DNA of 37,285 nt, from the NCBI RefSeq assembly GCF_016908145.1, contig NZ_JAFBDI010000024.1, positions 1-37,285 of the forward strand, read 5' to 3'. The notes under the pieces were generated by a model that was not told the origin of the DNA, ran no database searches, and saw nothing but the letters and a program-made list of their open reading frames with translations. The DNA is from Marinitoga litoralis (GTDB taxonomy: Bacteria; Thermotogota; Thermotogae; Petrotogales; Petrotogaceae). A program made the translations under genes and the position numbers. Below, piece after piece: positions 4,495-32,790 of this stretch. Every line of letters starts with the position of its first letter. Position 1 is the first letter of the stretch.

Positions 4495-7324
<2,830 letters not shown>

Positions 7325-12468: not shown

Positions 12469-12504
12469 ATACATGAAATATTTTTCATGTATTTTTTATT
12501 TTTT
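12469..12504 (+). promoter_or_regulatory. Leader palindrome: ARG-box-like site or attenuator hairpin
   Basis: A 10-bp perfect inverted repeat, ATACATGAAA (12469-12478) and TTTCATGTAT (12483-12492), encloses TATT and is followed by two T runs (to 12504). The core ATGAAATATTTTTCAT (12473-12488) has the TGAAW-N4-WTTCA spacing of an ARG box and is the exact reverse complement of 28368-28383. In RNA it would fold into an intrinsic-terminator-like hairpin about 15 bases from the predicted transcript start. Sequence alone cannot choose between a DNA-binding site and an attenuator. Confidence 0.55.
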
Positions 12505-12559
12505 GAGCTTTTTATTAATAATGAAATTTTTTTCTTAATATATAGAAAGGGGTGGTAGT

Positions 12560-14074
12560 ATGGCAAGGCAAAAGTGGGGGTCTAGATGGGCTTTTGTTTT
12601 AGCAGCTATTGGATCAGCTGCAGGATTAGGTAATGCATGGCGTTTCCCTTACATGGCATATTCTAATGGTGGTGGTGCATTTTATATTCCATATTTTGTA
12701 GCATTATTTATTGCAGGTATTCCTCTTTTAATGGCCGAATTTGCTATTGGTCAAGGCCTTCAAGCTAGTGCTCCAAAAGCTATGTCTAAAATTAGTAAAA
12801 ATGCCGAATTCATTGGTTGGTGGGCTGTTATTACTGGAGCTATTATCACATTTTATTATAATGTAATCATGGCTTGGATTTTTAATTACTTATATTATTC
12901 ATTAGGTGTTGCTTGGAAAGATGACCCTAAAGGATTTTTCTTTGGCGATTTCTTAAAATTAACTGATGGTCCTGGTCAATTAGGCGGTTTAAGATTGCCT
13001 GTTGTTATTGGATTATTGATTACATGGATTTGGATTTTCTTAATTTTAAGAAAAGGTACAGAATCTGTTGGAAAAACTGTAATGTGGACGGTTCCTTTAC
13101 CTGTAATACTATTAATATTATTAGGAATAAGAGGGGTTACTTTACCAGGTGCTGCAACAGGTTTAAATTATTTATTTGAACCTAACTTTGCAAAATTAGC
13201 TGAACCTAGAGTTTGGGCAAATGCTTTTGGTCAAATTTTCTTCTCATTAAGTCTTGCATTTGGTATTATGATTGCGTATGGCAGTTATAATGACAAGAAA
13301 AATGATATAGCTAATAATTCTATTATTACCGCTTTGGGTAATTCAGCTACTTCATTCTTAGCTGGTATTGCAGTTTTCTCAGTTCTAGGATATATGGCTC
13401 AACAAATGAGCGTTCCTGTAAACGAAGTTGTTAGTGGTGGTATAGGATTAGCATTTGTTGTTTATCCACAAGCAATCTCTTTAATCCCTGGTGGAGTTAT
13501 TGTTCAATCAATATTTGGATTAGCTTTCTTTATAATGTTATTAACTCTTGGTATTGATTCAGCATTTTCATTAGTTGAGGCTGTTGAAGCTTCTGCGGGG
13601 GACAAATTCAAAATTAATAAAAAATCATTCTTAATTGGATTTTCAATTTTAGGTTTTATTTTTGGATTGCTATTCTCAACTCAAGGTGGATTATATTGGT
13701 TAGATATTATTGACCATTATATGGGTACATATGCATTATTAGTTGTAGGTATTTTAGAATCTATTTTAATTGGATGGATATTTGGTGCAGATAAATTAAG
13801 AGAATATATTAATTCAGTATCTGAAATTAAAATTGGAAAATGGTTTGATTTTTCATTGAAATTTGTTATTCCATTAGTATTATTATTCATATTGGGTCTT
13901 ACATTTGCTGATGAAATTAAAAATCCATATGAGGGATATCCAGGATGGGCATTAACAACAGGCTTGATTGTATTTATTTTAGTACCTGTGTTAGCTTTAA
14001 TATTTGCAAAAATGCCATCTAAAGATGATAAGTATAATATAAAAGCTACAGAAATCACCTTCGAAGAGGAATAG
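12560..14074 (+). CDS. Sodium-dependent amino-acid transporter, NSS family
   Basis: A 504-residue LeuT-fold symporter that uses the sodium gradient to import an amino acid. The first segment carries the family signature WGSRWAFVLAAIGSAAGLGNAWRFPY split by unwound Gly residues that bind sodium and substrate. The remaining 10-11 membrane segments follow in usual order, with GIDSAFSLVEA in the segment 8 region. AAAGGGGTGG lies upstream of the start. It is followed after 11 bases by a tiny membrane protein resembling MetS, the small subunit of MetPS-type methionine/alanine importers. This suggests a neutral amino acid as substrate, though specificity is inference. Confidence 0.93.
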   Translation: MARQKWGSRWAFVLAAIGSAAGLGNAWRFPYMAYSNGGGAFYIPYFVALFIAGIPLLMAEFAIGQGLQASAPKAMSKISKNAEFIGWWAVITGAIITFYYNVIMAWIFNYLYYSLGVAWKDDPKGFFFGDFLKLTDGPGQLGGLRLPVVIGLLITWIWIFLILRKGTESVGKTVMWTVPLPVILLILLGIRGVTLPGAATGLNYLFEPNFAKLAEPRVWANAFGQIFFSLSLAFGIMIAYGSYNDKKNDIANNSIITALGNSATSFLAGIAVFSVLGYMAQQMSVPVNEVVSGGIGLAFVVYPQAISLIPGGVIVQSIFGLAFFIMLLTLGIDSAFSLVEAVEASAGDKFKINKKSFLIGFSILGFIFGLLFSTQGGLYWLDIIDHYMGTYALLVVGILESILIGWIFGADKLREYINSVSEIKIGKWFDFSLKFVIPLVLLFILGLTFADEIKNPYEGYPGWALTTGLIVFILVPVLALIFAKMPSKDDKYNIKATEITFEEE

Positions 14075-15382: not shown

Positions 15383-15829
15383 TTACTTATTATTCCTATA
15401 ATACATTTGAATACCTATTTCATCTAAATTTCTATTTTCTTCTCTTTGATATTCAATTTTATACTCTTCAAACTTTCTTTCTTTTAATTTTTCTAATATA
15501 ACTCTTTCTTTTCTAGCCTCTAAATACTTTTGTCTTTTTTCTTCTTCTATTGCTAATTTTTCTCTATATATTTCTCCTAATCTAATTCTTTCTTTTTCTA
15601 ATGATTCTAAATATGCTCTCCATTGTTGAATTTCCTGAATACTAATCAAGTTTTGAGATATTTGTTTTAAATAATTTCTATTTTCTTCTTTTATCCTTTC
15701 ATTAATTTCCACTAAAGCCTCTTCTGCTTTTATTCTTTCAGCAGTTGCTTCTAAAAATATTCTTTTTGCATCTTCTTCTAATCTTTCCCTTAAATTTTTT
15801 AATCTTTCCAAATTAAAGTGAAATCTCAT
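15383..15829 (-). CDS. fliJ: Flagellar export chaperone FliJ
   Basis: A 148-residue, almost wholly coiled-coil protein beginning MRFHFNLERLKNLRERLEEDAKR, the typical N-terminus of FliJ (phenylalanine-rich start, then Leu-Arg heptads). FliJ is the central stalk of the flagellar type III export ATPase complex and passes chaperones to the gate. Length matches the family (about 145-150). Its ATG overlaps the stop of the upstream regulator gene by four bases. No other flagellar gene is present in the window, so it is detached from the usual fliHIJ arrangement. Confidence 0.85.
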   Translation of the reverse strand: MRFHFNLERLKNLRERLEEDAKRIFLEATAERIKAEEALVEINERIKEENRNYLKQISQNLISIQEIQQWRAYLESLEKERIRLGEIYREKLAIEEEKRQKYLEARKERVILEKLKERKFEEYKIEYQREENRNLDEIGIQMYYRNNK

Positions 15830-17478
15830 TTTAACCCCAATTTCTCTAGTTTATAATATAAATTTCTTACTGTAAGTCCTAATCTTTTTGCAGCTGCAGT
15901 CTTGTTACCTTGGCAAACTTTTAAAGTTTCTATAATAATTCTCTTTTCATATTCGTCAAGCATTTCTTTTAATGTTCCTTTTAATTCTTCGCCTTCATTT
16001 ATTTCTTTTGATAAGTCTGGTAAATGCATTGAAGTTATAATCGTTTCAGAATGAGACATATTCATTAAAGCTCTATCTAAAACATTTTCTAACTCTCTTA
16101 TATTTCCTGGCCAATCATAATTAACTAATATATTTATAGCATCTTCTGATATATCATATACAACTTTTTCGTGTTTTTGATTTAATATATGTAAAATTTG
16201 TTTTGACATTGCAGGAATATCTTCTTTTCTTTCTCTTAAAGGCGGAACATCTATTGAAACAACAGATATCTTGTAATACAATTTTCTAGAAAATTTACCT
16301 ATTGACATTAATTCTTTTAAATTTTCTGGAGTTGCAAAAATAAGTCTTGCATTTAAGGTAATTTTCCTTTTATTATAATATACAAATCCTTCATTTAATA
16401 AATCATACATTAAGTTTTGTACATCTGCACTCATTAAATGAGCATTGTCTATAAACAATGTACCGCTGTCTGTTCTTTCTATTAAATTGTCTTCTGCATC
16501 AAAAAACATTTCTAATTGCTTTTTTTCATCATATAATAATAAATTAATCGAAATAAACGGATTATTTCTTTTACTACTATAATTGTGTATAGCTTGAGAT
16601 AATATTTCTTTTCCAACACCTGGTTCTCCATTCAACAATAAATTCACATTTGTATTAGCAGCTTTCTTTGATTGGAAAACAACGTTTTTCATAATTTCTG
16701 ATTCAGTAGTAATATCATCAAAAGTATATTTTGCTTCATCTTTCTTTAGTAATCTCTTAGTAGCTTCAAGTTCTCTAATTAATCTTTCTATTTCTGATAT
16801 ATCATGTATAACTCCAACACTACCCTTAAATTCACCTTTTACAAATATAGGATTTACATTAATCAACACTTCTTTCTTATTAGTAGCTAATTTTGTTTTT
16901 ACATTTAATATTGGTTGTTTTTCTCTAGCACATCTCATGTGCATACTTTCTTGACCTTCAGCAATATCATATGTTGCTAATTTTCCAATAACTTCTTTTG
17001 GAGATAGTCCTGTTACTTTAGTATACGCTTTATTAACCATTACTATTCTACCTTCTTCATCAGCAACTGATATTGCATCATATGTAGAATCAATAACAGC
17101 TCTTAATAGAGATTCTAAATCTCTTAAATTAGTAACTTCTTCTGCTAATTTTTGAATACTTGTAATGTCTCTAAATATGGCTGCAGCACCAATAATTTCA
17201 TCATTTTCATCTTTTATTGGAAATCTTGAAGTAACTATAATTTTTTTACCTAAATTTTGAATTCTATCCAACTCTGGAATACCTGTTTTTAAAACAATAT
17301 GTAATCTAGTATCTGTAATAGTATCCGTAACCTTTTTGTATAATGCCTTTTCTTTGGGCAAATTAAGGATATTAGATGCAGAATTATTTAAAAATATTAT
17401 TTCTTCTTTAGAATTAATAAGAATAACAGCCTCTTGTATATCATCCAAAATTCTTAATATCATATCTTCTGTTTTCAT
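15826..17478 (-). CDS. PAS-AAA-Fis regulator with degenerate sigma54-activator domain
   Basis: A 550-residue regulator: PAS domain at about 1-105, second PAS at about 120-230, AAA+ domain at about 250-475, and a Fis-type helix-turn-helix at 503-550 (GNKTAAAKRLGLTVRNLYYKL). Walker A is present as GEPGVGKE (284-291). The GAFTGA loop that contacts sigma54 is absent: between FISINLLLYDE and GTLFIDNAHL there is only a short acidic linker. The Walker B glutamate is replaced (GTLFIDNAHL, N345), and the two arginine-finger positions of GRFREDLYYRL read S398 and K404 in GKFSRKLYYKI region. So it probably binds DNA and senses a ligand or redox signal through PAS, but does not remodel sigma54. It is coupled to fliJ and overlaps nothing upstream (one-base gap). 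Confidence 0.88.
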   Translation of the reverse strand: MKTEDMILRILDDIQEAVILINSKEEIIFLNNSASNILNLPKEKALYKKVTDTITDTRLHIVLKTGIPELDRIQNLGKKIIVTSRFPIKDENDEIIGAAAIFRDITSIQKLAEEVTNLRDLESLLRAVIDSTYDAISVADEEGRIVMVNKAYTKVTGLSPKEVIGKLATYDIAEGQESMHMRCAREKQPILNVKTKLATNKKEVLINVNPIFVKGEFKGSVGVIHDISEIERLIRELEATKRLLKKDEAKYTFDDITTESEIMKNVVFQSKKAANTNVNLLLNGEPGVGKEILSQAIHNYSSKRNNPFISINLLLYDEKKQLEMFFDAEDNLIERTDSGTLFIDNAHLMSADVQNLMYDLLNEGFVYYNKRKITLNARLIFATPENLKELMSIGKFSRKLYYKISVVSIDVPPLRERKEDIPAMSKQILHILNQKHEKVVYDISEDAINILVNYDWPGNIRELENVLDRALMNMSHSETIITSMHLPDLSKEINEGEELKGTLKEMLDEYEKRIIIETLKVCQGNKTAAAKRLGLTVRNLYYKLEKLGLK

Positions 17479-25501: not shown

Positions 25502-26980
25502 TTATATATATACAGCTATTGTCAATGCAAGCATTACTACTATGGATATGATAATTAATAATTTCCATACAAATTTAAAATATGTTTCATATGGAACTTT
25601 TGCAATAGCTAATGCTCCCATAATAACTGCACTAGTTGGGGTAAACAAGTTAATCACACCAGAAGCTGATTGATATGCTGTAATAACTAAATCTCTTCCT
25701 ACACCTGCAAAATCAGCTAATGGAGCCATAATCGGCATTGTTAAAGTTGCTAAACCTGATGTAGAAGGCACTAAGAATGACATTGGCAAATAGAATAAAT
25801 ATGCTATATTAACAAATGCAGCTGATCCTAATTTTGCTAATGTTTCTTCACCCCAATGAAGAATAGTTGCTGTCATACCTCCATCATTCATAACTACTGT
25901 AATACCTCTTGATACACCTATTATTAATGCAACTCCTAATAAATCTCTAGCACCACTTACAAAACTATCTATATATTCATTTTCACTCATTTTATACATT
26001 CTAGATATTATTAAACTAGCTACAAAGAATAGCATTGTTATTTCACCAAACCACCAATCACCTAATGGTATTGGATGACCTATTATTTTACCTAATACTG
26101 GAATATTCATTAAAAAGTTATTGAATTTTTCAAATATTAAAATATCAAATTTCCATGCCCAAGGTATTACCCCTAAAACCATCACAACAAAAGTTAATCC
26201 AAATACCCATAATACTTTTTTTCTTTCTTTTGTTAAAGTTATTTCTTCATTATTTTCATTTTTAAAATGTTCTTCATGCTCTTCTTTTAAATGGTATATT
26301 AAAGATTTTGAAGGATCTTTCTTAACTTTTTCTGCATATTTCATTACATAGATAATTCCAATTATTTCAGAAATAACTAAAATAATTAATCTTAAAACAA
26401 TACCATCTCCAATTGAAATATTCGCAAATCCTGATGCTATACCAGTTGCAAAAGGATTAACTGTTGAGCCTAACACACCTAATCCTGCTCCTAAAGCTAT
26501 AGTAGCAACTGCCGTTAATGCATCAAATCCTGCAGCTATAAATACAGGAATAATTAGAGGATAAAAGGCTATTGTTTCTTCTGCCATTCCATATGTTGTA
26601 CCACCTAAACCAAATAAAATCATTAAAATTGGTATTAATAATTTCTCTTTACCATTAAGCTTTTTTAAAACATTTGATATTCCTGCTTCGATAGCTCCAG
26701 TCTTCATAACAATAGACAAAAAACCACCTATAACAATAACAAATAAGGCAATGTCTACTGCATCATAAAAACCTTTAATTGGTGCATTGAAAATTTCCCA
26801 TAAACCTTGAGGATTTTGTTCTACTCTGTGATAAGTACCTGGAATAGGTTGTGGTTTTGAAGCTGTTGGATCTACATAATCATACTGTCCAGCTGGAATA
26901 ATCCATGTGAAAATAGCTACTACAACAATAATTGAAAAAAGAATAGTGTAGGCCGTTGGCATTTTAAAGTTCTTTTTCAT
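25502..26980 (-). CDS. YfcC-family carrier (basic amino acid or dicarboxylate transporter)
   Basis: A 492-residue membrane protein with 11-13 predicted segments. It begins MKKNFKMPTAYTILFSIIVVVAIFTWIIPAGQYD, the hallmark start of the YfcC/ArcD-like group, and has GGTTYGMAEETIAFYPLIIP and GSTVNPFATGIASGFANI in the expected places. Members are named variously as C4-dicarboxylate carriers or arginine/ornithine exchangers; substrate is not certain. I choose the start at 26980, because GAGGAGG is nine bases upstream and the homologous N-terminus begins there. It lies one base after the dipeptidase stop, forming a two-gene operon. Confidence 0.88.
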   Translation of the reverse strand: MKKNFKMPTAYTILFSIIVVVAIFTWIIPAGQYDYVDPTASKPQPIPGTYHRVEQNPQGLWEIFNAPIKGFYDAVDIALFVIVIGGFLSIVMKTGAIEAGISNVLKKLNGKEKLLIPILMILFGLGGTTYGMAEETIAFYPLIIPVFIAAGFDALTAVATIALGAGLGVLGSTVNPFATGIASGFANISIGDGIVLRLIILVISEIIGIIYVMKYAEKVKKDPSKSLIYHLKEEHEEHFKNENNEEITLTKERKKVLWVFGLTFVVMVLGVIPWAWKFDILIFEKFNNFLMNIPVLGKIIGHPIPLGDWWFGEITMLFFVASLIISRMYKMSENEYIDSFVSGARDLLGVALIIGVSRGITVVMNDGGMTATILHWGEETLAKLGSAAFVNIAYLFYLPMSFLVPSTSGLATLTMPIMAPLADFAGVGRDLVITAYQSASGVINLFTPTSAVIMGALAIAKVPYETYFKFVWKLLIIISIVVMLALTIAVYI

Positions 26981-26981
26981 C

Positions 26982-28319
26982 CTAAACCTCCTCACATATT
27001 TTATATATTGCTTTTGCATATATTTTAATGCTTTTTATTAAATCTTCTACTTTTGCTTTTTCATTTGGCTTATGCTCTGTCGATTCGCCATTAGGAAATG
27101 TAGCTCCAAAAGCTATACAATTATCTAATGCCCTTGCATATGTTGCTCCACCTGAAGAAATTGGTTTTGATGTAAAATCTTTCGTTTCTTCCCTATATGT
27201 TTCTAATAATATTTTGTATAAAAAATGTTCTTTAGAAAAATATACAGGTTGAAGCCAATCTATTTCTTCAATCTTAAGATTATACTTATTTGTTTTCTCT
27301 CTTAATTTTTCTAATACAAATTCTTTTTTTATTGTAACTGGAATTCTTATATCCACTCCAATTTCTTGGTAATTGCTATCAATATTTATCTTACCTATAT
27401 TAAATTTCAGATAACCTGAATCTTCATCTTTACATTCATCAAAAATTTTTCTTGCATATGGATCTTCTCCAATTTCATTTACTACAAAATTAATTAAATT
27501 AGATGTTTGTCCTATATTTTTTAATGCAATTAATATTCTTTCTATTGCATTTATACCTTTTTCTGTATCTTTAGCATGAGCAGATTTACCTAAAACAACT
27601 ATTTTTCCATTTCTTATTAAATATTCATATCCTAATTTATCCATTTCATCTTTTAATTTATCATTATTATCAATTTCTATTTCATCTGGTACAGAATTTA
27701 AAGCATTCCCACCAATTAATTTCAAATGGCTTTGTTCTTCTGAATATATTTTTAATTGTAATAATCCCTTTTCTGCATAAACTAAAGGAAATTTTGAATC
27801 TGGAGTAAATGAGATTTTTGGAATTTCTTCATTTTCTTTATACTTCTCTATTCCTCTCCATAATAACTCTTCATCAGTTCCAAATATTACTCTAATTCTT
27901 TTTTTAAATTTATATCCAATTTCATCTAGTAATTTTATGGCATATATTGAAGCTAATAATGGACCTTTATCATCTTGAACTCCACGTCCATATACATACC
28001 CATCTTTTATAATCATGTTAAATGGTTCTGTTTCCCAGTCACCTAAATTACCAGCTGGGACAACATCTAAATGTCCTAATACACCTACTAATTCTTCACC
28101 TTCACCAATTTCTGCATAACCATAATATTTGTTATAATAGGTTTTAAATCCAAGTTTTTCACATATAGATAATGTTTTTTTAAGAACTTTATCTATATTT
28201 TCTCCAAAAGGATATTCACCAGATTCACTATTGACACTTGGGATATCAATTATTTCTTTTAAATCGTGAAAAAATTCACTCTTTTTGTTAATTATTAAAT
28301 CATCTAATTTCTCAATCAT
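26982..28319 (-). CDS. pepV: M20-family dipeptidase, PepV/Sapep type
   Basis: A 445-residue metallopeptidase that cuts dipeptides in the cytoplasm. Metal ligands are visible in order: H83 and D85 in VLGHLDVVPAG, D116 in GRGVQDDKGP, the E150-E151 pair in FGTDEELLWRG, an Asp in FTPDSKFP, and a C-terminal His in STEHKPNEKA. The lid domain occupies about residues 180-330. The start at 28319 follows GGGAGGGATTAAA; a TTG five codons earlier lies on the ribosome site. Pairing with the YfcC carrier suggests joint handling of peptides and amino acids. Confidence 0.9.
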   Translation of the reverse strand: MIEKLDDLIINKKSEFFHDLKEIIDIPSVNSESGEYPFGENIDKVLKKTLSICEKLGFKTYYNKYYGYAEIGEGEELVGVLGHLDVVPAGNLGDWETEPFNMIIKDGYVYGRGVQDDKGPLLASIYAIKLLDEIGYKFKKRIRVIFGTDEELLWRGIEKYKENEEIPKISFTPDSKFPLVYAEKGLLQLKIYSEEQSHLKLIGGNALNSVPDEIEIDNNDKLKDEMDKLGYEYLIRNGKIVVLGKSAHAKDTEKGINAIERILIALKNIGQTSNLINFVVNEIGEDPYARKIFDECKDEDSGYLKFNIGKINIDSNYQEIGVDIRIPVTIKKEFVLEKLREKTNKYNLKIEEIDWLQPVYFSKEHFLYKILLETYREETKDFTSKPISSGGATYARALDNCIAFGATFPNGESTEHKPNEKAKVEDLIKSIKIYAKAIYKICEEV

Positions 28320-28345
28320 TTTAATCCCTCCCAAAAATTCAATTT

Positions 28346-28374
28346 ATTATATACTATTATTTCAATAATGAAAA
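28346..28374 (-). promoter_or_regulatory. Promoter of pepV-YfcC operon
   Basis: On the minus strand TTTTCA (28374-28369), a 17-base spacer and TATAAT (28351-28346). The -35 is overlapped by the palindrome at 28368-28383. Confidence 0.55.
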
Positions 28375-28383
28375 ATATTTCAT
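28368..28383. promoter_or_regulatory. ARG-box-like palindrome over pepV promoter
   Basis: ATGAAAAATATTTCAT, exactly the reverse complement of the core of the NSS leader palindrome at 12473-12488. The TGAAA-N4-TTTCA spacing matches an ARG box (TGAAT-N4-ATTCA). Position over the -35 would suit repression. Two GCATACT-like words also lie in this intergenic region (28459-28465 inverted; CATACTC at 28485-28491). The remainder of 28384-28530 is A+T-rich with nothing visible. Confidence 0.5.
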
Positions 28384-28531
28384 ATGTTGTATTTTCCATT
28401 ATATATTTAATTATCTTCATTTAATACCTTTTACTACATTTTTTTTTATCTATATTTAAGTATGCTATTTGTTATCATATTATTCATACTCTATTATCCA
28501 CATATTTAGAATTGGTTTATTATATTAAATA

Positions 28532-28556
28532 AAAAACCCCTTTTTCAGGGGTTTTT
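28532..28556 (-). terminator. Terminator of ribokinase-like gene
   Basis: AAAAACCCCT (28532-28541) pairs with AGGGGTTTTT (28547-28556) around a five-base loop. Read on the minus strand it ends in six U residues, 33 bases after the kinase stop. Confidence 0.9.
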
Positions 28557-28588
28557 AAAAAATATTTAATTAAATAATATTGATATCT

Positions 28589-29509
28589 TTACTTAAAATT
28601 CAATTTTATAAATTGTTCAACTTCATCTCTAGTTGGTATCGAAGATTGTGCACCTTTTCTAGTAATTGATATACCAGCTGCTGCTGATGCAAAAACAATT
28701 GCTTCCTTAATATCTTTTTTTTCTGATAACGCTACTGCTAATGCTCCATTAAATACATCCCCCGCTGCTGTTGTATCTACAATGTTTTCTATTTTAAATA
28801 CAGGTATTTTTAATATAGAATTAGTATTATATAATATGATGTCTTTACCACCTTGTTTTAAAATAATATTTTTTACACCCAAATTAAAGAAGCTTCTTAA
28901 AACTTCTTTTAAATTATCTTCGGGATTTAAATTGAAGAATTTCATAGATAAGTATTTAAATTCCTCCTCATTAGGAGTAAAATAGTCTATATATTGAAAA
29001 ATTTCTTTTTCAATATTTTGAGCTGGTGCAGGATCAAAAATAATTGTTTTATTTCTATTATTAAATGTTTTTGCAATATATAATGTTGTTTCAAATGGAA
29101 TTTCATTTTGCAATAAGAAGTATTTATATTCATTTAATACATCTATTTTCTTTTCAACAATTTCTGGAGTAATAAAACCATTTGCACCTTCATATATAAT
29201 AATTCTATTTTCACCTTTTTTTGTAACCTCTATATATGCTCTTCCTGTATGTAAATCAGTATATACATATCCAATAATATTATTTTTATCAAAATTATTA
29301 GCTAAATTCTTTCCAAATTCATCATTTCCTAATGCTGTAAAAAAATATACTTTTTCTTTTGATAATTTAGCAGCAGTTACAGCTTGATTAGCTCCTTTTC
29401 CACCTGGAAAATTTTCTAACAATATAGCTTTTTGAGTTTCACCTGGATTAGTAAATTTTTCAACTGTTAATACTATATCCATATTAGAACTACCTATTAC
29501 AGCTATCAT
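28589..29509 (-). CDS. rbsK: Ribokinase-like PfkB-family sugar kinase
   Basis: A 306-residue kinase with ribokinase motifs: N-terminal IGSSNMDIVLTVEKF, substrate loop GGKGANQA (36-43), and the anion hole with catalytic D251 in DTTAAGDVFNGALA. Length matches ribokinase (about 305). It most likely phosphorylates ribose at C5, but no ribose transport or deoC gene is near, so other sugars or nucleosides are possible. The ribosome site is GGGGGTAATAAT. It may be read together with the lipoprotein gene 25 bases upstream. Confidence 0.88.
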   Translation of the reverse strand: MIAVIGSSNMDIVLTVEKFTNPGETQKAILLENFPGGKGANQAVTAAKLSKEKVYFFTALGNDEFGKNLANNFDKNNIIGYVYTDLHTGRAYIEVTKKGENRIIIYEGANGFITPEIVEKKIDVLNEYKYFLLQNEIPFETTLYIAKTFNNRNKTIIFDPAPAQNIEKEIFQYIDYFTPNEEEFKYLSMKFFNLNPEDNLKEVLRSFFNLGVKNIILKQGGKDIILYNTNSILKIPVFKIENIVDTTAAGDVFNGALAVALSEKKDIKEAIVFASAAAGISITRKGAQSSIPTRDEVEQFIKLNFK

Positions 29510-29534
29510 ATTATTACCCCCATATATAATTTGG

Positions 29535-30608
29535 TTAATTTAAAATGTCATCAATAAACTTCTGATATAACATATCTAAATATATTAAAGAATATAATAT
29601 TGATCCTCTTATTGTCACTAAATCCCAATCGGAAAAATACGTTTCTTCATTTCTATTATTACCAAGATAAAAATAAGATATTAGATCAAAATTTCTTTCG
29701 CCTTTTTTTCCATCACCTATATAATCATACTGTGTTGATATATACAGAAAATCTGCATCAATCAATACATGGGTTAAACCAAAAGATAATGCATAAATTT
29801 CATTATCATTAGTTATTTCTGCTCTAAATGATCCTGGAAAAAATCTTGATTCTTGCATTATAATAGCTAAAATTAATTCTACAGGTATATGTTTAAGAAT
29901 AACTTTTTGGGGATATAATACTGAACTTGTATCTTTTAATCTATTTAATTCTATATTCGAATTTGTATAAGAATAAGCTACATCTACTAAATATTCAGAG
30001 TATTTTTTAATATCATCATCTGTTAGTACTATCCCTGAATAATAGTATTCATACCACTCTTTAAATGTTGAAGAGGAATTATAATACTCTTTTATTTTAT
30101 TATAAACCCTATTAATTAAAAAATCTCTTTTATCATATTCTTTAATTATTGATGGATTTAAATTACTATATTCTTTATTAGAATTAACTGGTATATTTTC
30201 ATCATAATAGTCAATTAAAAAAACACTAGATGAGTTATTTTTAAAATTCTGTTCTGTTATATTTTTAATATAGTTTTTGATTGTAGGATGATAATGAGGA
30301 TCGTCAGATAAAGACTTCGTTGCTTTATCTGGATCATCAATTTCCCCAATGAAATATTTATAAAATTCAAGTACATTATCATCATAATTATATCCAGGAG
30401 TATTTGCTAATTCTTTTAACTTATCAAATGTATAATTCCCGCCCTCATTGTATCCAGTAGCTAATATTCTTATTAATAATTCTTTCTGTTCATTAGTTAA
30501 ATCAGAAAAATTAGTGTCTATTACCTGATCTTCAGACTTAGGAAAGAAATTAACACATGAATTAAAAATAAAAATTAATAATAATATTAATAATATTATT
30601 TTTTTCAT
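29535..30608 (-). CDS. Lipoprotein with lytic-transglycosylase-like C-terminus
   Basis: A 357-residue exported lipoprotein. The signal MKKIILLILLLIFIFNSC ends in a lipobox with C18. Residues 20-230 are helix-rich with no family I recognise. Residues about 241-345 resemble the SLT domain: PVELILAIIMQESRFFPGSF gives the catalytic Glu as E253, and ALSFGLTHV at 273-281 takes the place of the usual S-GA-GLMQ segment. This suggests cleavage of peptidoglycan at the cell surface, but the second motif is divergent and the activity is uncertain. Confidence 0.75.
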   Translation of the reverse strand: MKKIILLILLLIFIFNSCVNFFPKSEDQVIDTNFSDLTNEQKELLIRILATGYNEGGNYTFDKLKELANTPGYNYDDNVLEFYKYFIGEIDDPDKATKSLSDDPHYHPTIKNYIKNITEQNFKNNSSSVFLIDYYDENIPVNSNKEYSNLNPSIIKEYDKRDFLINRVYNKIKEYYNSSSTFKEWYEYYYSGIVLTDDDIKKYSEYLVDVAYSYTNSNIELNRLKDTSSVLYPQKVILKHIPVELILAIIMQESRFFPGSFRAEITNDNEIYALSFGLTHVLIDADFLYISTQYDYIGDGKKGERNFDLISYFYLGNNRNEETYFSDWDLVTIRGSILYSLIYLDMLYQKFIDDILN

Positions 30609-30625
30609 AACATCACTTCAAATTA

Positions 30626-30634
30626 ATTATATCA
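30626..30634 (-). promoter_or_regulatory. Extended -10 promoter of lipoprotein gene
   Basis: TGATATAAT on the minus strand (TATAAT at 30631-30626), 18 bases before the start codon. No good -35 is seen. The same extended -10 form appears at the rel and fabG promoters. Confidence 0.6.
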
Positions 30635-30670
30635 TATTATTTGATAATATTTTTCTTTATTATAAATTGC

Positions 30671-30720
30671 GCATACTCACGCATACTCACGCATACTCAT
30701 TTATACTTACGCATACTATT
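30671..30720 (+). repeat. Phased 10-bp direct repeat array
   Basis: Five successive 10-base units: GCATACTCAC, GCATACTCAC, GCATACTCAT, TTATACTTAC and GCATACTATT. The period equals one helical turn, so every copy faces the same side of the DNA. The array lies between divergent genes, upstream of ornithine carbamoyltransferase. It has no spacers, so it is not CRISPR. Confidence 0.85.
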
Positions 30721-30737
30721 AATAAAAAGGAATAATC

Positions 30738-30753
30738 ATGAAAATTTCTTCAT
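30738..30753 (+). promoter_or_regulatory. Weaker ARG-box-like site upstream of argF
   Basis: ATGAAAATTTCTTCAT has the same 16-base span, ATGAA and TTCAT ends and TGAAA-N4-CTTCA layout as the two stronger palindromes (13 of 16 bases match). It lies 30 bases before the -35 region of the carbamoyltransferase gene. Confidence 0.4.
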
Positions 30754-30782
30754 AATATTAGATTTTTTTATCATTTTTTTGT

Positions 30783-30811
30783 TTGGAGAATAGGAAAAAA
30801 AAATGTATAAT
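30783..30811 (+). promoter_or_regulatory. Promoter of argF-arcC
   Basis: TATAAT at 30806-30811 is clear. TTGGAG at 30783-30788, 17 bases upstream, is a weak -35, hinting at dependence on an activator. Confidence 0.5.
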
Positions 30812-30845
30812 ATCTTCGTCGATAATTCTAAGAGGAGGAGATAAT

Positions 30846-31826
30846 ATGCCAGTAAATTTAAAAGGAAGAAGCTTATTATCATTAAAAGATTTTACATCAG
30901 ATGAAATTAAATATTTATTAGATTTAGCATTTGATTTAAAATCTAAAAAAAGAGCAGGAATCAGAAACGAAGTATTAAAAGGTAAAAACATAGTATTAAT
31001 TTTTGATAAAACTTCTACAAGAACAAGAACTGCTTTTGAAGTTGCAGCTTTTGATGAAGGTGCTAATGTAACATTTTTAACTAATAGTCAAATGGGTAAA
31101 AAAGAATCAATTGAAGATACAGCTAAAGTTTTAGGAAGAATGTATGATGGTATTGAATACAGAGGATTCTCTCAAAAAGTTGTTGAAGATTTAGCAAAAT
31201 ATTCAGGTGTTCCTGTATGGAATGGTTTAACAGATGAAGCACATCCAACTCAAGGATTAGCTGATGTTATGACAATGATGGAATACATACATAAACCATT
31301 AAATCAAATGAAAGTTGCATTTATAGGTGATACAAGAAATAATGTTGCTAATACATTAATGAGAATTTCATCAAAATTGGGTATGCACTATGTTGCAGTT
31401 GGTCCAGAATCATTAAAACCATCAGATGAAATGATGAATGAAGCTTTAGAAAATGCTAAAGAATCAGGTGCAATTATTGAATACACATCAGATTTAGATG
31501 GAGTAAAAGGTGCAGATGTTATATATACAGATGTTTGGGTATCAATGGGTGAAGAAGATAAAATGCCTGAAAGAGTAGAATTATTAACTCCATATAGAGT
31601 AGATATGGACTTAATTAAAAGAACAGAAAATCCAAATGTAATCTTCTTACATTGTTTGCCATCATTCCATGATTTTGAAACCGTTGTTGCAAGAGAAGCA
31701 AAAGAAAGAGGACTTGATATAAGAGAAGTTACTGATGAAGTATTTAGAAGCAAACATTCAAGAGTATTTGATCAAGCTGAAAACAGAATGCACACTATAA
31801 AAGCAGTTATGGTTGCTACATTATAG
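30846..31826 (+). CDS. argF: Ornithine carbamoyltransferase
   Basis: A 326-residue enzyme exchanging carbamoyl phosphate plus ornithine with citrulline plus phosphate. The carbamoyl-phosphate motif is STRTRT (57-62), HPTQ is at 133-136, the ornithine loop is DVWVSMGEE (near 229-237), and HCLP is at 269-272 with the key cysteine. The gene is followed by carbamate kinase, so a catabolic (ArcB) role making ATP from citrulline is likely; the enzyme itself is reversible and could also serve arginine synthesis. The start at 30846 has AGAGGAGGAG upstream. A TTG 21 codons earlier lies in the promoter. Confidence 0.94.
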
Positions 31827-31848: not shown

Positions 31849-32790
31849 ATGAAAAAATTAGCTGTCGTTGCTATTGGCGGTAACGCAATGAATAGACCTG
31901 GTGAAAAACCAACAGCAGAAAACATGTTTAAAAACATCAGAGTAACAGCATCATATTTAGCAGATATGATAGAAATGGATTATGACATCATTATTACACA
32001 TGGTAATGGACCACAAGTTGGAAATTTACTTTTACAACAAGACATTGCAAAAGATACTATACCTCCATTTCCAATGGATGTATTAGGTGCAATGACACAA
32101 GGTTATTTAGGTTATATGATTGCTCAAGAATTAAAAAATATTTTAAATGAAAGAAAAATAGAAAGAGATGTTGCAACAGTAGTTACTCAAATTGTTGTTG
32201 ACAAAGATGATCCTGGATTTAAAAATCCAACAAAACCTGTTGGTCCATTCTATAGTGAAGAAGAAGCAAAAAAAATGATGGAAGAAAAAGGTTGGATCTT
32301 CAAAGAAGATGCAGGAAGAGGTTGGAGAAGAGTAGTACCTTCACCAATTCCATTAGATGCTATTGAAAAGAATACAATTAAAGATTTAGTAGAAAATGAT
32401 GTAATTGTTATAGCTGGTGGTGGCGGTGGAATACCAGTAATTATAACAGAAAATGGTGAAATAAAAGGTGTAGAAGCAGTTATTGATAAAGATAGAGCTT
32501 CTGCATTATTAGCAAAAGAACTAAATGCAGATGAATTTATTATTTTAACAGCTGTTGAAAAAGTATACTTAAATTTCAATAAACCTGATCAAAAAGCATT
32601 AGATGAAATTACAATTAGTGATGCTGAAAAATATATTGAAGAAGGTCATTTTGCTAAAGGTAGTATGTTACCAAAGATAGAAGCTTGTATGTCATTTGTA
32701 AAAGATACAAGAAAACCTGCTTTAATAACAGATATGGAAAAATTAAAAGAAGCTTTAGAAGGAAAAACTGGAACTAAAATATTACCATAA
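31849..32790 (+). CDS. arcC: Carbamate kinase
   Basis: A 313-residue kinase that converts carbamoyl phosphate and ADP to ATP, carbon dioxide and ammonia. It opens MKKLAVVAIGGNAMNRPGE with the GGN phosphate loop. THGNGPQVGNLLLQQDIA, GRGWRRVVPSPIP and VIAGGGGGIPVI are standard, as is KGSMLPKIEA near the end. GATAAGGGGGG precedes the start at 31849, 22 bases after argF. Arginine deiminase, the first enzyme of the pathway, is not in the window, so citrulline must come from elsewhere. Confidence 0.95.
   Translation: MKKLAVVAIGGNAMNRPGEKPTAENMFKNIRVTASYLADMIEMDYDIIITHGNGPQVGNLLLQQDIAKDTIPPFPMDVLGAMTQGYLGYMIAQELKNILNERKIERDVATVVTQIVVDKDDPGFKNPTKPVGPFYSEEEAKKMMEEKGWIFKEDAGRGWRRVVPSPIPLDAIEKNTIKDLVENDVIVIAGGGGGIPVIITENGEIKGVEAVIDKDRASALLAKELNADEFIILTAVEKVYLNFNKPDQKALDEITISDAEKYIEEGHFAKGSMLPKIEACMSFVKDTRKPALITDMEKLKEALEGKTGTKILP

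Follow-up and report, generated by a model that had tools for sequence, protein, structure and literature searches.

Five 10-bp direct repeats upstream of argF in Marinitoga litoralis: a probable operator of arginine and ornithine fermentation genes in Thermotogota

The window, that is the whole stretch of 37,285 nucleotides of Marinitoga litoralis DNA analysed here, carries the genes argF and arcC, preceded by a tandem array of five 10-bp units. The initial annotation placed this array between two divergent genes, and it is indeed flanked by a leftward lipoprotein-like gene and the rightward argF. The features referred to below are as follows.

15826..17478, minus strand: PAS-PAS-AAA+-Fis regulator, a candidate only; NCBIfam hits led by PrdR and DhaR, both below cut-off; GAFTGA motif not seen by eye
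25502..26983, minus strand: YfcC-like basic amino acid antiporter, below the curated cut-off; start codon picked by eye within the open reading frame 25502-27019
26982..28319, minus strand: pepV-like dipeptidase of the Sapep family (TIGR01887)
28346..28351, minus strand: predicted pepV -10 box, TATAAT
28368..28383, no strand: palindrome ATGAAAAATATTTCAT upstream of pepV, its centre 24 bp from the -10 box
28456..28465, minus strand: single unit GCATACTTAA upstream of pepV, in the orientation of pepV, its core 111 bp from the nearest TATAAT
29535-30608, minus strand: lipoprotein-like gene, to the left of the array
30671..30720, plus strand: array of five 10-bp units in the order GCATACTCAC, GCATACTCAC, GCATACTCAT, TTATACTTAC, GCATACTATT, in the orientation of argF
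30738..30753, no strand: second conserved element, palindrome ATGAAAATTTCTTCAT, matching ATGAAA-N4-TTTCAT at 11 of 12 positions
30783..30788, plus strand: predicted argF -35 box, TTGGAG, followed by a 17-bp spacer
30806..30811, plus strand: predicted argF -10 box, TATAAT; core of the first unit 132 bp away, phase 2 modulo 10
30846..31826, plus strand: argF, ornithine carbamoyltransferase (TIGR00658)
31849..32790, plus strand: arcC, carbamate kinase (TIGR00746)

The five-unit array is real and is the top-scoring tandem array of the window. Tandem Repeats Finder reported it at 30670-30717 with a period of 10, 4.8 copies and a score of 68, the highest of 42 rows. The best five-unit self-match at period 10 in the window also fell at this array (start 30667), with 31 of 40 comparisons matching versus a maximum of 27 in 200 dinucleotide shuffles of the window. 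Single 10-mer units with up to two mismatches occur 15 times against 13.7 expected, which is not significant, unlike the array. The core of the unit is ATAC, usually within GCATACT, and the consensus was estimated as GCATACTYAN with an invariant AT; the array finder was built on the consensus of the window, so that unit frequencies are biased towards it. An RNA element was rejected, as an Rfam search of positions 28300-31000 found no family at the array and gave a single sub-threshold match at 28519-28556.

Intrinsic DNA bending, one of the two roles first suggested for the array, finds no support in the roll component at 10.4 bp, which is 0.067 at the array compared with a mean of 0.194 and lies below 92% of 51-bp windows. 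A 10-bp periodicity is what curved DNA devoid of a protein site would display, and the dependence on phase described below is also expected of curved upstream DNA, but a base-specific word is preserved across families, and we consider curvature a very improbable explanation.

A search of the M. litoralis genome with the two-unit 19-mer, allowing up to three mismatches, returned seven overlapping matches at only three loci and none with the reversed control. Thus the genome search proposed in the initial annotation places arrays upstream of argF, arcA and ord, namely at argF-arcC, at arcA with an arginine/ornithine antiporter-like gene (L008), and at ord-ortA-ortB-oraS (L009). ArcA (TIGR01078), Ord, OrtA and OrtB were recognised by NCBIfam above cut-off, the antiporter (TIGR03810) below cut-off, and OraS was named by Pfam (PF16552, ornithine aminomutase alpha subunit). 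Together, the genes at the three loci are those of the arginine deiminase and ornithine fermentation pathways.

Arrays of 2-5 units precede argF-arcC, arcA and ord-ortAB-oraS in all seven Marinitoga genomes (7/7 each); that of argF in G005 escaped the pattern and was recovered on inspection. The initial annotation had held that absence or random length of the array in close relatives, together with no effect on argF expression, would refute its reading. Absence is contradicted by the three operons of all seven genomes, while length does vary, between two and five units. In the alignments the promoter-proximal unit is constant, and distal units are gained or lost. At spacings of up to 45 bp in Marinitoga promoters, multiples of 10 account for 61 of 61 GCATA-GCATA and 81 of 99 CATAC-CATAC distances; this is partly expected because the loci were picked with the two-unit pattern, and the reversed control is uninformative for CATAC, which reads the same reversed.

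Across 103 Thermotogota genomes the two-unit pattern gave 109 matches versus 11 for the reversed control (summed by hand), divided into 43 versus 0 in Marinitoga and 66 versus 11 in other Thermotogota. The 66 non-Marinitoga matches represent 55 distinct loci, of which 35 precede argF, arcA, ord or a conserved gene for a protein of about 445 amino acids; this count is the sum of 27/34, 8/20 and 0/1, wider DNA having been used for 54 loci and a 3-kb locus (L068) for the last. Outside the genus, GCATA-GCATA spacing is a multiple of 10 in 67 of 83 cases. Arrays were also found in a Kosmotogaceae metagenome-assembled genome (L085, G052) and in one labelled Thermotoga sp. (L094, G030). Among the remaining 20 loci, L112 and L131 share an oxidoreductase/GDPD context, L115 and L318 have a PEP-carboxykinase-like gene, and no common context was seen for the other 16. 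The matches beside the PEP-carboxykinase-like gene (L115, about 5007-5026; L318, 810-828) come from G071 and G073, which belong to the same genus, and this gene is a possible further member of the regulon.

No verified array was found in 69 of the 103 genomes, a tally that ignores whether the target genes are present. In the family of the window outside the genus, 12 of 14 genomes were searched; argF is present in 11 of these, at 12 loci that all lack an array. Literature searches, in which coverage of subscription journals was thin, found no title on these arrays, and a term search of PMC3750489 found no mention of arginine.

The gene for the protein of about 445 amino acids, which carries the motif GAAGRDFHNFN, follows arrays outside Marinitoga at L102-L106, L110, L119, L124-L127, L130, L132-L134, L309, L316, L321 and L324; in five of these loci (L119, L124, L127, L133, L134) argF comes next. 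It has no match in Pfam or NCBIfam, and is labelled here cDPGS-like after a weak match in the PDB to cyclic 2,3-diphosphoglycerate synthetase (7.9e-9). It is likely to be an unrecognised part of arginine metabolism.

A scan for exact three-unit stretches in one genome per species, covering 84,980 species but possibly lacking records very close to the genome of the window, yielded 23, of which three are directly upstream of a pathway gene, all in Thermotogota. In one cyanobacterial stretch (L079) an ArgF homologue is more than 4 kb away. In all, 20 of the 23, L079 among them, do not immediately precede any of the pathway genes tested; most consist of nearly identical units in a row, as would be left by replication slippage, and the number of units at the operons differs among species. 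Even so, it is barely conceivable that the argF array is a meaningless product of slippage: one word recurs at three unlinked operons of the same pathway in 7/7 species and in other families, the units have diverged around a constant proximal unit, and they are locked in phase to the predicted -10 box.

This phase was determined by scoring sigma-70-like promoters between array and gene and taking, modulo 10, the distance between the unit core and the beginning of the best -10 box. Phase 1 or 2 was found in 54 of 59 predicted promoters (44 and 10, respectively), over distances of 31-132 bp and in both orientations of the array. When the DNA between array and gene was shuffled 1000 times, preserving letters and not dinucleotides, a mean of 11.8 and a maximum of 23 of the 59 promoters had this phase. 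The set omits seven upstream regions lacking an array of score at least 15, namely those of the second-in-operon argF of L119, L124, L127, L133 and L134 and of pepV in the window and in L065. The period of the lock is 10.0 and not 10.5 bp.

Because orthologous promoters are not independent, they were grouped by gene, family and orientation, and by majority all 16 groups were at phase 1-2 (R = 0.970, compared with a shuffle maximum of 0.660). With one random member per group, mean R was 0.921 (minimum 0.775), shuffles reaching at most 0.636. With the highest-scoring promoter representing each combination of gene and genus, 19 of 20 were at phase 1-3 and one was at 8. The five off-phase promoters are those of arcA in L055, where the second-best predicted promoter is in phase, of ord in L111, L113 and L323, and of the cDPGS-like gene in L130. 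In family f2, to which the three off-phase ord promoters belong, ord is off phase in 3 of 8 promoters and the cDPGS-like promoter of L130 is at phase 3. Within one gene, part of the modulo-10 regularity could result from units of 10 bp being added, lost or eroded, but this does not account for the agreement across different genes and orientations.

Strong comparative support for the other role first suggested for the array, binding of a regulator to a single helix face, comes from its conservation at unlinked operons that belong to a single pathway, from the 10-bp lattice and from the lock to the predicted -10 box. The array very probably serves as a landing strip for a putative regulator. More specifically, it is probably an operator made of direct repeats and serving a regulon of arginine and ornithine fermentation in Thermotogota; protein would bind it head-to-tail along one face of the helix, most likely as an activator. 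A stack of protein is suggested by the combination of a base-specific word, strict direct repeats in either orientation, one face relative to the -10 box, and the lack of curvature. In such a complex, each 10-bp unit would be occupied by one protomer of a putative transcription factor, presumably cooperatively, and the stack would keep the same angle around the helix with respect to RNA polymerase at the -10 box. It would most likely activate argF-arcC, arcA and ord-ortAB-oraS, as well as pepV-yfcC in some species; the number of units (2-5) would set affinity or output, and the input may be arginine, ornithine or a two-component signal.

Activation is favoured by the position of the array upstream of the -35 box and by the poor predicted -35 boxes at arcA, the position 'always upstream' of the promoter being built into a scan that required the -35 box to be proximal to the array. 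Good -35 and -10 boxes are frequent at ord and cDPGS-like promoters, and repression is thus still possible: a repressor might sit on the array, or form a filament that nucleates there and spreads towards the promoter in 10-bp steps, silencing the pathway when substrate is lacking. Degenerate GCATA/GTATA units run towards the promoter in or near register in some species, the array at Marinitoga ord abuts the predicted -35 box, and BldC represses whiI from -50 to -80 (PMC5859096). However, most arrays start about 90-130 bp upstream of the predicted -10 box, which is unusual for repression, and the predicted arcA -35 boxes are poor; we regard a repressor as rather unlikely.

The palindrome between array and promoter, presumably the one mentioned in the initial annotation, is conserved in its own right. 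All 14 argF and arcA promoters of Marinitoga (argF 7/7) place its centre 59-60 bp from the predicted -10 box, and it matches ATGAAA-N4-TTTCAT at 10-12 of 12 positions in Marinitoga promoters. At ord it sits between the -35 and -10 boxes (7/7 Marinitoga), and the arcA array has a similar palindrome on each side (7/7; L008, L050, L052, L055, L059, L062, L066). Two further palindromes, at 12473-12488 (12/12) and 12521-12536 (11/12), are located just upstream of a transporter gene at 12560-14074, of the sodium-symporter type as judged by eye, suggesting that the palindrome has a regulon of its own. Near the start codon of ord, on the downstream side of its promoter, lies another conserved element, TGTTANNAAWATCACAA (L009, L051, L054, L064, L067), which resembles a Rex or CRP site.

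Upstream of pepV, GCATACT (minus strand, 28459-28465) and CATACTC (plus strand, 28485-28491) are both present as had been reported, the latter probably by chance. Measured against the TATAAT nearest pepV (111 bp), the single unit is in phase; against an intervening TATAAT (59 bp) it is out of phase. Judging by its relatives, this unit is perhaps the remnant of an array such as that of G008 (L061), the only genome of the genus with an array at pepV, where four units form a fourth array at pepV-yfcC. The proposed link between the argF and pepV operons through the array is therefore supported by one relative, but no array was present at pepV in G010 (L065).

Which protein might occupy the array was approached through neighbouring genes and protein families. 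No regulator gene common to the neighbourhoods of the array loci was found. Isolated neighbours, which do not recur widely, are a response regulator and kinase beside the cDPGS-like gene (L132), a response regulator near arcC (L200), an AraC-like gene recognised by eye (L324) and a 142-amino-acid protein with weak HTH matches (L119, L127, L134). A 249-amino-acid protein near argF in G077 (L133, 889-1638) looks SARP-like by eye and has no Pfam match. In G079 and G078, a CRP/FNR-family gene is directly downstream of and convergent with arcA (L117, 2971-3672; L314, 3546-4247); it is possibly an ArcR-like regulator, and its product has strong homologues in related genera.

Several families were rejected as binders on the basis of their absence from the array-bearing genomes named here, and some of them are present in other array-bearing genomes. 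The ArgR domain PF02863 was detected in 0 of 21 genomes of the family of the window, the Thermotoga maritima control being positive. SARP/BTAD (PF03704) was detected in 0 of 7 Marinitoga, where a diverged member could escape detection, and BTAD is present in some array-bearing genomes outside Marinitoga (G052, G058). NarL/GerE proteins (PF00196) were not found at E<=0.001 in the array-bearing G028, G030 and G039, nor a homologue of the arcA-adjacent CRP protein at E<=1e-8 in the array-bearing G028-G031 and G075. BldC/HTH_17 was not found at E<=0.001 in the array-bearing genome of the window (G000) and G005, and HTH_17 proteins occur in some other Marinitoga genomes.

The PAS-AAA+-Fis regulator encoded at 15826-17478, whose top NCBIfam match is PrdR, below its cut-off, could be the binder as a PrdR/TyrR-like protein. 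PrdR governs proline fermentation, and Fis-type domains bind palindromes. In a search that scored at most 13 candidates per genome, homologues occurred in 83 of 103 Thermotogota and in 29 of the 34 genomes with a verified array (hand tally); the 14 genomes of family f10 have neither homologue nor verified array. The association is weak because 54 of the 69 other genomes also have a homologue. Moreover, five array genomes lack it, three of them 60-80% complete and two 98%, and the protein could equally serve the ATGAAA-N4-TTTCAT palindrome, which leaves it a quite improbable binder.

An OmpR/PhoB-family response regulator, acting on 10-11 bp direct repeats as ArcA, OmpR or TorR do, is a possible binder, if on balance unlikely. 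The array has the tandem direct repeats of 10-11 bp in variable number that this family would use, and the sites of E. coli ArcA consist of 2-5 direct repeats, spaced by 11 bp in most cases (PMC3798270). PF00486 proteins are encoded in all 11 genomes searched, including all seven that bear arrays. However, a tree built from 50 of the 53 proteins over cut-off shows no orthogroup that follows the arrays, and the two orthogroups found in all seven array genomes are also found in all four array-less ones; one shared orthogroup appears PhoB-like, as its gene lies beside phoU/pstB (by eye).

Seen as the probable operator of an activator, the array marks out a set of co-regulated arginine and ornithine fermentation genes across Thermotogota, including a genus in which ArgR was not detected, and could serve as a bait sequence for isolating the regulator. 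The phase rule (1-2 modulo 10 in both orientations) offers an unusually clean natural case of apparent helix-face-dependent control and predicts further members of the regulon. A bolder and unlikely proposal has a regulator of a DNA-binding type undescribed for such a use acting phylum-wide: it would read arrays of GCATACTCAC in either orientation, at 31-132 bp from the -10 box and in register with it, the lattice being exactly 10.0 bp. It might do so as a protein filament that grows in 10-bp steps and sets the local helical repeat between array and RNA polymerase.

Among known systems, the ARG boxes of ArgR/AhrC likewise control arginine genes. They are palindromes, and the C-terminal domain of ArgR is missing from the 21 genomes of the family. 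ArcR, of the CRP/FNR family, activates arginine deiminase operons in Firmicutes, and in G079 and G078 arcA has a CRP-family gene as its neighbour, but homologues of that protein are absent at the above threshold from the array-bearing G028-G031. CRP dimers bind palindromes. Closer in architecture are two regulators of direct repeats. For ArcA of E. coli, PMC3798270 describes 2-5 tandem repeats about one helix turn apart, in promoter-dependent number, at catabolic genes; their spacing is mostly 11 bp compared with 10 bp here, the word differs, and no response regulator has been tied to the Thermotogota arrays. By this analogy ArcA is the nearest working counterpart of the array. BldC of Streptomyces, a MerR-like protein, binds head-to-tail to variable direct repeats in either orientation at or upstream of promoters (PMC5859096). 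The Marinitoga unit GCATACTYAN is not the BldC word AATTXXXX(C), which sets it apart from a BldC-type site, as does the HTH_17 result for G000 and G005. With head-to-tail oligomers on repeats of variable number (PMC5859096), BldC is by analogy the nearest structural counterpart of the stack that would assemble on the argF array.
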